DNA of 64,000 nt from Streptomyces sp. RPT161 (GTDB taxonomy: Bacteria; Actinomycetota; Actinomycetes; Streptomycetales; Streptomycetaceae), in NCBI RefSeq assembly GCF_027533845.1, contig NZ_JAPZVN010000026.1, positions 1 to 64,000 on the forward strand. The letters run 5' to 3'. The notes under the pieces were generated by a model. That model did no database searches and was not told where the DNA came from. It was given only the letters and a program-made list of their open reading frames with translations. Both the position numbers and the translations under genes were made by a program. Shown piece after piece: positions 44,127 to 50,825 of the stretch; the stretch's first letter is position 1; the number at the start of each line of letters is the position of its first letter.

Positions 44127-45104
44127 ATGGGCCGCCATCGCCGCACTTCCGCCGAACCCGCCCCACCTGCCGCCCGTCGCACGCCGCCACCCGCGACGCA
44201 GGCCCTTCGGACCGCCGCGTCGCCTGCCCCGTCCCACCGGCCGGTGCCCGGCCGCGGCAGGGAGCCGCGGCCCAACCCCCCGGTGCGCACGGGTCTGTTG
44301 GGCGCCGCCGCCGCGCTCGCGGTCGGCGCGGTGGCCGTCGCCTCCGGACTCGTGCCGGTGCCGGGCGGGGCCCCAGGCGGCAACACCCTGGGCGCCCCGG
44401 ACGACGCCCCCGGCAACCTGCCGCGGGCCGACGGCGCCCCCACCACTCCGGTGACCGGCGCCGTCCCGACGGACCGGGGCTCCGTGCCGACGAGCCGGGA
44501 CGCCGGACGCGGTGCCGACCCGGGCGGGCCGGTGCCCGTCGGATCACCGGGCCGGTCGGCGCGGCCGTCACCGACCGCCGTACCGCCGCAGCGCGGCGCC
44601 GGCACAGCCGCCGCCTCCGCCACCCCAACCGCCCCACCGAGCACCGCCGCCCCGGACGGCACCGACGGCGCGAGCGGCAGCGACGCCCCCTACGGCAGCA
44701 TCGGCCAACCGTCGGGGCCCGGCGCGGCCGACCGAGCGGTGCGTCAGGTACTCGCCCTGGTGAACCAGCAGCGCGCCGCGGCGGGCTGCGTACCGCTCAC
44801 CGAGGACCCCCGGCTGGGCACCCTCGCCCAGGACTTCAGCCAGGACATGGCCGCCCACGGATTCTTCGGCCACACGGACCAGAACGGCAGGTCGCCGTGG
44901 GACCGGGCGGCCTCGCTGGGGATAGCGAACCTGGGCGGCGAGAACATCGCCCGCGGCCAGACCGACGCCAAGGCGGCGATGGACTCCTGGATGGGCAACC
45001 CGGAGCACCGGGCGAACATCCTCGACTGCGAGTACCACACCATCGGGATAGGCGTCGACTTCACCTCCAGCGGCCCTTGGTGGACGCAGGACTTCGGCTT
45101 CTGA
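44127..45104 (+). CDS. Secreted CAP (SCP/PR-1)-domain protein
   Basis: 325 aa: an N-terminus beginning MGRHRRTSAEPAPP, a transmembrane/signal segment near residue 60 (LLGAAAALAVGAVAVASGL), a 120-residue Pro/Thr/Ala-rich linker, then a C-terminal CAP domain from about residue 205: VLALVNQQRAAAGCVPLTED, FSQDMAAHGFFGHTDQNGRS, GENIARGQTDAKAAMDSWMG, NPEHRANILDCEYHTIGIGV. Two cysteines may form the usual disulfide. CAP proteins are common in streptomycete exteriors; function unknown. GAGGA lies about 9 nt before the ATG. Confidence 0.85.
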   Translation: MGRHRRTSAEPAPPAARRTPPPATQALRTAASPAPSHRPVPGRGREPRPNPPVRTGLLGAAAALAVGAVAVASGLVPVPGGAPGGNTLGAPDDAPGNLPRADGAPTTPVTGAVPTDRGSVPTSRDAGRGADPGGPVPVGSPGRSARPSPTAVPPQRGAGTAAASATPTAPPSTAAPDGTDGASGSDAPYGSIGQPSGPGAADRAVRQVLALVNQQRAAAGCVPLTEDPRLGTLAQDFSQDMAAHGFFGHTDQNGRSPWDRAASLGIANLGGENIARGQTDAKAAMDSWMGNPEHRANILDCEYHTIGIGVDFTSSGPWWTQDFGF

Positions 45105-47330: not shown

Positions 47331-48095
47331 TCAGTGGGAGGCGGTCTGCTCCTGGGCGGAGGCTTCCCGCTGCTCGCGCTTGGCGCGGATCTCCCGCCAG
47401 GCGGACTCGGCCGCCTGCTGTTCGGCTTCCTTCTTGCTGCGGCCGGTGCCGGTGCCGTACGTGACACCACCGACGCGGGCGGCAGCCGTGAAGGTCTTCT
47501 CGTGGTCCGGCCCCGACTCGGTGACCAGGTACTCGGGGACACCGAGCGCCTCAGTCGCGGTCAGCTCCTGGAGACTGGTCTTCCAGTCCAGGCCCGCCCC
47601 GAGGTTCGAGGACTTCTCGATCAGCGGATCGAAGAGTCGGTGCACCAGCTCGGACGCCGCGTCCAGACCCTGGTCCAGATAGACGGCACCGATCACGGCC
47701 TCCAGGGTGTCGGCGAGGATCGACGCCTTGTCCCGGCCGCCGGTCCCCTCCTCACCCCGGCCCAGGCGGATGAAGCTGCCCAGCTCAAGGCCGCGGGCCA
47801 CCTCCGCTAGCGCACGCGAGTTGACCACCGCGGCCCGCAGCTTGGCCAGTTGGCCCTCGGGCAGGTCCGGGTGGGCCCGGTACAGCGTGTCGGTGACGAC
47901 CAGACCGAGCACGGAGTCACCAAGGAACTCCAGCCGCTCGTTGGTCGGCAGCCCGCCGTTCTCGTACGCGAACGAACGATGGGTGAGCGCACGCACCAGA
48001 AGGGCGGGATCGAGTGTGTACCCGAGCCGCCCTTCCAGAAGCGTGTGGGACGAGGCTGCCTTGATGGCGTCTGCCGACGACTTGGCGTCTGACAT
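47331..48095 (-). CDS. rnc: Ribonuclease III
   Basis: RNase III processes rRNA precursors and double-stranded RNA; in S. coelicolor the gene is absB and affects antibiotic production. About 254 aa, with the signature [40 protein letters not shown] near the middle and a C-terminal dsRNA-binding domain ([20 protein letters not shown] to [20 protein letters not shown]). ATG at 48095 ([10 protein letters not shown]) fits, though GTG 48107 is possible. It lies in the rpmF-yceD operon. Confidence 0.95.
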
Positions 48096-48114
48096 GAAGC
48101 CTGTCACCTACCGA

Positions 48115-48290: not shown

Positions 48291-48893
48291 CTATTTCTCC
48301 TGCTTCTCGTCGACGCCGCGCTCGGCGCCGCTCATGTTGTCCTTCTCGCCGGCCTTGAGGGATTCGGCGAGTCCCTGCAGTGCCGCCCAACGAACGTCGG
48401 CGGCATCGTGGTGGTGCTCCGGGTTGTCCGCCAGCCGCGCTCCGCACTCGGAGCACAGGCCAGGGCAGTCCTCCCGGCACACCGGCTGCAGCGGCAGTTC
48501 CAGCACCACCGCGTCACGCAGCACGGATTCGAGGTCGAACATGTCGTCCTCAAGGACGAGCAGTTCCTCCTCGTCGCCGTCCTCGGTCTCTTCCGCGTCA
48601 CCGCCGAAGCGCTGGTCGGCGTCCGGGTAGGAGAACAGCTCCTGGAAGTCCGAGTCGAGCTCCCACTCGACCGGCTCCAGACACCTTACGCACTCCCCCT
48701 CGACCGGCGCATGGGCGGTACCCGTGACGAGCACGCCTTCCATGACCGATTCCAGCCGAAGGTCCAGTTCGATCGAGGCCCCTTCGGGCACACCGATCAC
48801 CCCGGCGATGCCGAGGTCCGCGGGCGCGGGCACCGTGCGGGAGACCTTCTTCATCGCGCCAGGCCGACGACCCAGCTCGCGTGTGTCGAACAC
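48291..48893 (-). CDS. yceD: YceD family (DUF177) protein
   Basis: 200 aa if started at GTG 48893. YceD proteins are encoded beside rpmF and are linked to 23S rRNA and ribosome assembly. The core has [40 protein letters not shown] and [20 protein letters not shown] (Cys-x3-Asp-Cys-x3-Cys-x2-Cys). The frame continues upstream as [19 protein letters not shown], which I remember as conserved in Streptomyces orthologues, but no normal start codon precedes it; ATC at 48926 is the only candidate. See findings. Confidence 0.9.
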
Positions 48894-49097: not shown

Positions 49098-50189
49098 TCA
49101 GCGGCCCTGTTCCAGCTCCCGCAGGCGGTCCAGGTCGATCAGTCCGGTGTCGAAGAAGCTGGTCTCGTCCAGTCCGGTCGGCTGCACGGCGTGCTGCTGG
49201 TACGGCTGTTGCTGCTGGTGCTCGTGCGGCTGGTGCTGGTGTGGGATCTGGTGCTCGTACCCCTGCTGCTGCCAGCCGTACGCGGGGTCGGTGTACTCGG
49301 TCTGCTGCGGGACGTAGCCGTAGGCGTCGTAGCCGCCGCCCTGGTACGGGTCCTGCTGGTAGCCGCCGTAGTCGGCCGCCATCGGCGCGTACTCGGGCTG
49401 CTGCGGGTAGTCGTAGGCGGCGGGCTGCTCCTGGGGTACCGGCTCCGGCTGCGCGCCCGCCAGGCCCGCCAGATACTCGGCGTCGCTCTGCTGGGCGGCC
49501 ATCGGGGTGCCGTCGGCCGCCAGGCCGTCCTGGGCCGCCATGTGGGCGGCCAACTCGTCGACGGGGCGGTGCCCGGTGAGCTTCTGGCGGCCCCGGCCGA
49601 CCGCCTCCAGGGTCTTGGCCAGCACCGCCTCGAACGCGCCCAGCTTGGCGTCCACGTAGGCGTCGGCGCGGCGGCGCAGTTCCTCGGGGTCGCCGGTACG
49701 CTCCGGCGCCTCCTCGTCCGCCATGCCTTGCTCGTCGGTGCCGGGGCCGCGGCCGAGCAGCTTCTCGCGACCGCGGTCGACCGAGCCGAGGGTCTTGGTG
49801 AGGACCACCTCGAAGTTGGCGAGCTTGCTGTCGACGTACTCGTCGGCCTCCGCGCGGATCTCCTCGGCCTCCTGGCGGGCCTCGGCCAGGATCCGGTCGG
49901 CCTCGGCCTGGGAGCGCCGGGCGACCTCGGTGTCGGAGACCAGCGAGCCGCGCTGCTCGTGGGCGGAGGCGATGATCCGCTCGGCCTCCGCCCGCGCCTC
50001 GGCGACCATCTGCTCGCGGTCACCGAGCAGCGCCTGGGCCTGGGAGAGCGAGTCCGGGAGGGCGTCGCGCACCTCGGACAGCATGGCGAGCAGTTCGGCC
50101 CGGTTGACCACGCAGGAGGCCGACATCGGCATGGAGCGCGCGCCTTCGACGGCCGCGACGATCTCGTCGAGCTTCTTTTGCACGTCCAT
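49098..50189 (-). CDS. DivIVA-like coiled-coil cell-envelope protein with Q/Y-rich tail
   Basis: 363 aa. Residues 1-220 are a helical coiled coil beginning MDVQKKLDEIVAAVEGARSM with long Glu/Ala/Arg heptads (EAERIIASAHEQRGSLVSDT). The segments around residues 117-150 and 177-210 are 60 residues apart and alike (EYVDSKLANFEVVLTKTLGS; AYVDAKLGAFEAVLAKTLEA), an internal duplication. The C-terminal ~140 residues are Gln/Tyr/Pro/Gly-rich (QPEYAPMAADYGGYQQDPYQ). Database names for this family vary (ATP synthase B/B'-like, cell division initiation). It lies upstream of yceD; coaD is about 130 bp away, so they are not tightly coupled. Confidence 0.82.
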   Translation of the reverse strand: MDVQKKLDEIVAAVEGARSMPMSASCVVNRAELLAMLSEVRDALPDSLSQAQALLGDREQMVAEARAEAERIIASAHEQRGSLVSDTEVARRSQAEADRILAEARQEAEEIRAEADEYVDSKLANFEVVLTKTLGSVDRGREKLLGRGPGTDEQGMADEEAPERTGDPEELRRRADAYVDAKLGAFEAVLAKTLEAVGRGRQKLTGHRPVDELAAHMAAQDGLAADGTPMAAQQSDAEYLAGLAGAQPEPVPQEQPAAYDYPQQPEYAPMAADYGGYQQDPYQGGGYDAYGYVPQQTEYTDPAYGWQQQGYEHQIPHQHQPHEHQQQQPYQQHAVQPTGLDETSFFDTGLIDLDRLRELEQGR

Positions 50190-50315: not shown

Positions 50316-50825
50316 TCAGTCCCGGCCCAGCTTCTCGCGCAGCGCCCGCAGCACGGCGTCCGGCACCAGGTGGGAGACGTCGCCGCCCCACTGGGCGACC
50401 TCCTTGACCAGGCTGGAGGACAGGAAGCTGTAGGTGGGGTTGGTGGGGACGAAGAGGGTTTCCACGCCGGACAGCCCGTTGTTCATCTGGGCCATCTGCA
50501 GCTCGTAGTCGAAGTCGCTCACCGCGCGCAGCCCCTTGACGATGGCGGGGATGTCGCGCTGCTTGCAGAAGTCCACCAGCAGGCCGTGGAAGGCCTCCAC
50601 CCGAACGTTGCCGAACTCCTCGGTGACCTGCTCGATCAGCGCTATGCGCTCGTCGACGGTGAACAGGCCCTGCTTCGCCTTGTTGATCATCACGGCGACG
50701 TAGACCTCGTCGTACAGCCGGGACGCGCGGGCGATGATGTCGAGGTGTCCGTTGGTGATGGGGTCGAATGACCCCGGACAGACGGCGCGGCGCAACAGTG
50801 GTTCCTCGCTCTCCGATGCGGTCAT
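50316..50825 (-). CDS. coaD: Phosphopantetheine adenylyltransferase
   Basis: CoaD makes dephospho-CoA, the penultimate step of CoA synthesis. 169 aa: AVCPGSFDPITNGHLDIIAR contains the T/HxGH nucleotidyl site; EQVTEEFGNVRVEAFHGLLV and PTNPTYSFLSSSLVKEVAQW (the ISSSxVR-type motif) follow. ATG at 50825 overlaps the rsmD stop (ATGA). Confidence 0.95.
   Translation of the reverse strand: MTASESEEPLLRRAVCPGSFDPITNGHLDIIARASRLYDEVYVAVMINKAKQGLFTVDERIALIEQVTEEFGNVRVEAFHGLLVDFCKQRDIPAIVKGLRAVSDFDYELQMAQMNNGLSGVETLFVPTNPTYSFLSSSLVKEVAQWGGDVSHLVPDAVLRALREKLGRD

Follow-up and report, generated by a model that had tools for sequence, protein, structure and literature searches.

Identification of sepIVA and its genomic context

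The window analyzed in this work, a stretch of 64,000 nucleotides from Streptomyces sp. RPT161, contains on its minus strand, at positions 49098..50189, a gene encoding 363 amino acids plus a stop, without any internal stop; its translation begins with MDVQKKLDEIV. This gene is near certain to be the streptomycete sepIVA, because it combines sequence orthology with the same neighbor genes. The upstream neighbor is coaD (50316..50813, minus strand; PF01467 match). Downstream lie yceD, encoding a DUF177 protein (48291..48893; PF02620), rpmF for ribosomal protein L32 (48115..48288; PF01783) and rnc for RNase III (47331..48107; PF14622 and PF00035), each likewise on the minus strand, and mutM is a further downstream neighbor. 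As stated in the covered text of PMC11571769, the gene vnz26025 of S. venezuelae was named sepIVA by Sen et al. 2024 from such a gene context. Similar flanking genes were found across 41 loci (the window and 40 relatives, 7-9 kb each, scored for presence and not for gene order): yceD and rpmF in 41/41, coaD, rnc and mutM in 40/41, and rsmD in 39/41. The gaps are confined to one locus without coaD and rsmD at a contig end (L221), one without rnc and mutM (L239), and one without rsmD (L243). The protein also possesses the orthologous N-terminal block and the coiled coil, as captured by the core model A1, which was built from this gene and nine relatives. Its residues 1-30 (50100..50189, minus strand) hold the conserved MPMSASCVVNR block, most positions of which are invariant or nearly so in the alignment of ten proteins. 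The tag SCO5569 was considered for the sepIVA gene of S. coelicolor and rejected, since the covered part of PMC4681348 uses it for RNase III.

Core model A1 matched 99/99 genomes of the order, 169/246 genomes of the class sample and 142/149 genomes of the phylum sample, the weakest of these matches being perhaps not orthologues; a core match was absent from 77/246 class genomes. A second SepIVA paralogue in the genome of the window was rejected, since the whole-protein search finds the protein itself alone. A third, weak core-model match in this genome (E 5e-4; G000:C1:157894-158103) covers model positions 43-118 without most of the motif described below. It lies inside an open frame of 1273 codons, probably another long coiled-coil protein, and several short DNA matches to sepIVA occur close by in the same contig. 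Elsewhere in the window, an open reading frame of 325 amino acids with a low-complexity start is located at 44127-45104 on the plus strand, and we take its C-terminal part to resemble a CAP/SCP domain.

The best comparison is provided by the S. venezuelae SepIVA, which, in the covered text of PMC11571769, belongs to the same family and has similar flanking genes, a coiled-coil part and a disordered C-terminal extension, and is 32% identical to the M. smegmatis protein. According to the same text, an mNeonGreen-SepIVA fusion was found at hyphal tips, co-localized with DivIVA and partly diffuse, the protein interacts with itself and with DivIVA, and its knockout had no detectable phenotype, even without scy and filP. 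Localization at growth zones, which the earlier note had suggested, is thus already published for this orthologue. Tip or septal localization has also been published for the SepIVA of mycobacteria. There the protein is described as an essential septation factor, or as having a viable null with a septation defect (PMC7654743, in the part covered), whereas in Streptomyces it is a dispensable tip protein.

Relation to DivIVA and to ATP synthase subunit b

The label "DivIVA-like", under which the protein was first listed, is a loose one. What stands is that DivIVA/Wag31 is, like SepIVA, a coiled-coil scaffold of polar growth. Membership in the DivIVA family is not supported, because SepIVA scores 14.9 bits with PF05103 against a gathering cut-off of 28, while the DivIVA of the same genome, used as a control and encoded by a separate gene (L274, G000:C52:543367-544182), scores 65.6 bits. 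The NCBIfam Wag31 model is uninformative, its cut-off of 260 being missed both by SepIVA (17.2) and by the genome's own DivIVA (106 and 92). The latter carries a GPMGQ-repeat insert behind its N-terminal domain, and its tail, rich in Gly, Met and Gln, ends in GFLIDEDDN, unlike the end of SepIVA. Disordered regions are also contained in the DivIVA of actinobacteria (preprint PMC12393619, in the part covered). DivIVA assembles as a dimer of dimers through N- and C-terminal coiled coils, according to the covered part of PMC7340271, and a self-associating C-terminal helix in SepIVA would therefore be plausible, purely by analogy.

A weak likeness to subunit b of the F-type ATP synthase extends over the helical part of SepIVA (TIGR01144, E 1.9e-6). 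It stays below the curated cut-offs, with 27.8 vs 65.5 bits for TIGR01144 and 17.9 vs 28 for PF00430, and the neighbor genes differ. The TIGR01144 similarity is probably an ordinary coiled-coil resemblance.

Internal duplication of the C-terminal helix

In a self-comparison of SepIVA, the top ungapped diagonal has an offset of 60 and pairs residues 94-149 with residues 154-209 (29/56 identical, BLOSUM62 score 132). This score was reached by none of the shuffled sequences, whose maxima were 50 (plain), 63 (20-aa blocks) and 58 (40-aa blocks) in 100 shuffles each of the whole protein, and 50, 53 and 55 in 200 shuffles each of residues 1-215. A repeat with 60-residue spacing had been proposed in the earlier note for residues 117-150 and 177-210; the self-alignment confirms it, and its core lies slightly differently, at residues 115-146 and 175-206. 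A motif model of 32 positions, derived from relatives and the window itself, scores the two copies at 73.4 and 54.2 bits, respectively. It is the C-terminal helix of the SepIVA coiled coil, with the motif YVDxKLxxFExVLxKTLxxVxRGRxKL, that is doubled.

Copy 1, of ancestral type as judged below, was delimited by self-comparison and the motif model (residues 115-146; 49752..49847, minus strand). It is followed on the same strand by a variable linker (residues 147-174; 49668..49751), by the derived copy 2 (residues 175-206; 49572..49667), which is located within the predicted helix 168-205, and by a segment of the type PIDELAAHMAAQD (residues 207-222; 49524..49571) that is similar in single-copy relatives. 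The linker between the copies is 12 to 35 residues long in two-copy relatives. Of 135 distinct two-copy proteins, 103 have a repeat offset of 60; in the remaining ones it lies between 44 and 67.

Origin of the duplication

Among 25 genomes of the family of the window gene (f1) in the relatives search, sampled by genus, one copy was found in six (genera g2, g5, g11 and g15) and two copies in 19 (13 genera). Outside this family, 49/51 proteins have one motif: 5/5 and 1/1 from two other families of the order (f3 and f2, respectively) and 43/45 other proteins of the class. A maximum-likelihood tree was built from six neighboring genes (41 rows) and rooted on six other families of the class. A single branch of it separates the 24 two-copy rows from all others (support 100/98, present in 100% of 200 bootstrap trees), and the single-copy genera of f1 branch off before this clade, the root fork being weak (85/63); genus g11 adjoins the two-copy clade with support 93/86. 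In the order search, 86/86 f1 genomes (85 of them from genus g10) had at least two core matches among the matches listed, not every second match being placed, and 12/12 f3 genomes had one. All 80 of the best 80 of 162 named loci, mostly from Streptomyces, are two-copy. Because the two-copy rows form one clade and all sampled members of the clade are double, a single duplication inside the family fits these data, with no loss seen in the sample.

In the two remaining class proteins (L177 and L178, family f15) the motif is split by an insertion. About 29 extra residues stand between its KTL and RGR parts, and a second LxxTL precedes RGR. An independent duplication in f15 was considered and rejected, since the two partial motif matches reflect an insertion splitting the motif, perhaps a partial internal copy; the split is apparently a separate change near the site of the streptomycete duplication. 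Both proteins were dropped from the two-copy set, and in the tree a third f15 locus (L246, from G051, which is also the source of L177) carries the label single. The genome of the f2 protein (G025) has three core matches, and its SepIVA has one motif.

Two orthologues from family f6 (L205 and L206), which we take to be SepIVA of the mycobacterial type (MSMEG_2416 / Rv2927c), share with the window protein the conserved N-terminal block and the YVD...RGR motif. Unlike it, they have one motif copy with about 90 extra residues before it, and the long tail and the end peptide are missing. The length of the coil thus varies in these proteins and the end helix stays.

Divergence and constraint of the two copies

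Judged by sequence similarity, copy 1 is the ancestral-type copy and copy 2 the derived one: 43/46 single-copy motifs compared were nearer to copy 1 and 3/46 (L196, L200 and L209) nearer to copy 2. For this comparison 54 single-copy proteins were entered, of which eight were missed by the pattern, L177-L179 having been left out beforehand. In single-copy relatives (e.g. L027, L030 and L034) a segment resembling residues 207-222 comes after the sole motif, a pattern that a tandem duplication would leave if a new linker arose between the copies.

Copies 1 and 2 are the most constrained parts of SepIVA. Over 1500 random pairs of the 135 distinct two-copy proteins, copy 1 shows the highest mean pairwise identity (0.93), followed by copy 2 (0.86), the N part (0.80), the 15-residue end peptide (0.77), the linker (0.62), the segment after copy 2 (0.53) and the tail (0.34). 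The uncorrected pN/pS, taken over 1500 of the 2422 moderately divergent pairs, is 0.14 for copy 1, 0.20 for copy 2, 0.28 for the end peptide, 0.31 for the N part, 0.52 for the linker, 0.61 for the tail and 0.78 for the segment after copy 2; since the pairs share ancestry, both sets of values are summaries and not independent tests.

The consensus sequences of the two copies (143/147 loci with full 32-residue matches) differ at 11/32 positions. These positions cluster on one face of the helix, with direction 198 degrees (R 0.64, permutation p 0.0005), while the hydrophobic moment points to the other side (42 and 23 degrees). The same face is variable among 41 single-copy motifs selected by a narrower pattern (219 degrees, p 0.004). 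As the copies differ on an already variable face, copy 2 keeps the conserved face of the family, which speaks for the same contact being used twice and not for a new function. A role of copy 2 as a site for a new partner was rejected on this ground: with the conserved face unchanged, a new specificity there is unlikely.

Predicted structure of the repeat region

The AlphaFold model of the full protein, obtained with a shallow alignment of 38 rows from close relatives, has a mean pLDDT of 67 and a pTM of 0.38, with helices at residues 3-16, 30-145, 168-205, 213-221, 236-243 and 353-360, and pLDDT below 50 at residues 227-234 and 245-341. The long helix of residues 30-145 (49755..50102, minus strand) is presumed to form the coiled coil; mean pLDDT is 80-93 in the 10-residue blocks of residues 31-150. 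A separately modeled fragment of residues 94-222 reached a pTM of 0.62 and a mean pLDDT of 85, with helices at 95-144 and 168-205. Its best structural matches were two chains of the T7 tail complex (Z 8.4 and 8.2), followed by LSD1 416-514, FadA, the Rad50 hook, chemoreceptors and PspA/Vipp1. The best match of the whole model had Z 7.7, and such values (8.4 and 7.7) are ordinary for fold matches of long helices in the PDB. A sequence search of the PDB with SepIVA produced no significant match (best E 0.11, ATP synthase b), and a viral fold library held no match at E 0.001.

LSD1 416-514, the Rad50 hook and PspA/Vipp1 are antiparallel helical hairpins. The two motif helices of SepIVA apparently form such a hairpin as well, joined by the variable linker; this prediction comes from the structural matches and from a monomer model, in which helices that lack a partner may fold back on themselves. 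Dimer models had been made by Sen et al. 2024. A single continuous helix is argued against by the range of linker lengths (12-35 residues) and of offsets (44-67).

The two copies might instead remain unpacked and serve as two docking sites for the same partner, e.g. DivIVA, with a raised avidity at the tip. The residues D120, K122, E127, K132, R139, R141 and K143 (copy 1 numbering) are charged in both copies and would seem to be more than a coiled coil alone needs; the linker is variable, and an interaction with DivIVA exists. This arrangement is nevertheless rather doubtful in our judgment, as the two-helix arrangement is predicted with moderate confidence (pTM 0.62) and orthologues from outside the clade generally carry a single copy.

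The acidic tail and the conserved C-terminal peptide

The last repeat copy and the following segment are succeeded by an acidic tail rich in Q, A, P and Y (residues 223-339; 49173..49523, minus strand), characterized by its composition, the AlphaFold model and a test of aromatic spacing. The earlier note had described the last third of the protein as a Gln/Tyr/Pro/Gly low-complexity tail that may mediate clustering. Disorder is predicted by AlphaFold for residues 245-341. The composition applies to residues 260-340 (25% Q, 15% Y, 12% P and 11% G, with K and R absent) and does not extend to the last 24 residues or so, which constitute a conserved peptide that the note had overlooked. In 134 distinct tails pooled together, Q accounts for 23, A for 16, P for 13, Y for 11, G for 9, D for 8, R for 1.0 and K for 0.1 percent, and individual tails range from 8 to 34% in Q and from 6 to 15% in Y, with a mean net charge of -11.5. 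The tail keeps its composition and not its sequence.

Such a tail could be a condensate-forming region, in which multivalent Tyr/Gln contacts would concentrate SepIVA, together with DivIVA, at the tip and the repeat would add valency. The composition kept without the sequence is in line with this, as is the Q+Y share of 0.42 in an 80-residue window, the highest among 351 sampled ORFs of the same genome (464 kb; an approximate set from a crude ORF caller, in which some ORFs are surely wrong). Four of these ORFs, SepIVA included, have a share of at least 0.29, so that the Q/Y-rich sequence type is not unique, and the swing in Q content likewise speaks against such a role. Although predicted disordered and Tyr-rich, most tails have unevenly placed aromatics: compared by variance with 2000 random placements in 23 representatives, the spacing was not more even than random in most (mean z -0.49, 14/23 below 0). 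The exceptions were three f3 tails and G016, whose aromatics are strongly even (fractions 0.000 to 0.001), and, marginally, G015 (0.020) and G005 (0.035). The tail as a regular sticker-and-spacer sequence was therefore rejected as a general property. There is also almost no Lys or Arg for Tyr-cation contacts, and the charge is net negative. The S. venezuelae orthologue forms tip foci, which fits condensation, but is also partly diffuse, and no tail truncation is reported in the covered text of PMC11571769. With the aromatics mostly uneven and the S. venezuelae knockout without a phenotype, clustering or condensation by the tail is possible but unsupported, and we regard it as unlikely.

A separate ORF of 263 amino acids (11905-12696 of L267, on G000:C52, about 31 kb from divIVA) has a hydrophobic stretch in its N-terminal part and another stretch, rich in Tyr and Gln, with a Q+Y share of 0.35 over 80 residues, possibly a second tail of the same style.

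The conserved C-terminal peptide LDETSFFDTGLIDLDRLRELEQGR (residues 340-363; 49101..49172, minus strand) has the consensus DETS[FL]FDTx[ML]I and a predicted short helix at residues 353-360; mean pLDDT is 74 for residues 351-360. The pattern [FLYM]FDTxx[IL] was found in the last 40 residues of 135/135 distinct two-copy, 6/6 single-copy f1 and 5/5 f3 proteins. It was absent there from the single f2 protein (0/1), which has neither tail nor end peptide, and from all of the other class proteins (0/45), 11 of the 45 having at least 60 residues after the motif. The peptide is thus older than the duplication, given its presence in single-copy f1 and f3 proteins, and is not general to SepIVA. A stricter pattern missed 1/80 named loci (L060, with DETSMFDT), which was left out of the tail and peptide statistics. 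A motif common to other proteins of the genome was rejected, the search giving SepIVA and one further match at E 4.5.

Tethered docking peptides are built in this way, with a conserved end on a disordered spacer that evolves fast, and from its sequence features the tail may well be a spacer that tethers such a peptide. With this conserved end, a tether is no less likely than a condensate. In FtsZ a disordered linker presents a C-terminal peptide in the same layout; the SepIVA tail is instead Q/A/P/Y-rich and acidic, and homology is not claimed.

It could further be argued that neither the duplication nor the tail has a specific role, the former having been retained by chance as a neutral accident and the latter being a product of neutral low-complexity drift. 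The S. venezuelae knockout without a phenotype and the fast evolution of the tail and of the segment after copy 2 would agree with this. However, every sampled member of the clade has copy 2, which is constrained more strongly than the N part, and the end peptide is kept in all 135 distinct proteins; such neutrality is very improbable.

Proposed role of the doubled helix and the end peptide

As a whole, we consider the data best explained by a sepIVA in which the C-terminal helix was doubled once, copy 2 is folded back and the tail tethers the end peptide, an explanation to which we assign an even chance of being right. SepIVA would self-associate, presumably via its long coiled coil, and sit in the hyphal-tip polarisome together with DivIVA. 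The coil ends in the conserved helix, duplicated once in one clade of the family. Copy 1 stays at the end of the coil with its ancestral-type sequence; copy 2 follows the variable linker and most likely packs against copy 1 in an antiparallel hairpin. A helix-helix contact formerly made between molecules, or with a partner, would thereby have become intramolecular, and the end of the coil would be thickened and closed. The acidic Q/A/P/Y tail would act as a disordered spacer presenting DETSxFDTxMI and the short helix to a partner at the tip. Orthology, the repeat, its single origin in the sample, the constraint, the predicted disorder and the conserved end come from calculation; the hairpin, the internalized contact and the docking of the peptide are what we infer.

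The vector pUT18 places T18 at the C-terminus of the fusion. SepIVA was cloned in both pUT18 and pKT25 for the two-hybrid assay (covered text of PMC11571769); if T18 was on its C-terminus, DivIVA binding would need no free end peptide. Given the absent phenotype of the S. venezuelae knockout, none of the parts described here has a demonstrated use.

SepIVA itself is already known; the doubling of the helix and the end peptide are apparently undescribed so far. A text search of the main text of PMC11571769, where the disordered extension is mentioned, found neither the repeat nor the conserved end peptide. Neither was found described among the titles and abstract beginnings listed for the SepIVA literature, and the covered part of PMC13432765 makes no mention of SepIVA.

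In the doubled helix and the end peptide, the lineage differs in concrete ways that bear on the contrast between a septation factor and a dispensable tip protein, and the peptide is usable as bait for a component of the streptomycete polarisome. A more far-reaching and decidedly speculative proposal, which we think unlikely as it stands, is that the doubled assembly helix and the older, order-level FDT tether turned a septation/elongation factor into a hyphal-tip client. If this were true, the FDT end peptide would read the real partner of SepIVA and name a polarisome component, and a contact that joins SepIVA molecules to each other, or to a partner, elsewhere in actinobacteria would be satisfied within one molecule in streptomycetes.
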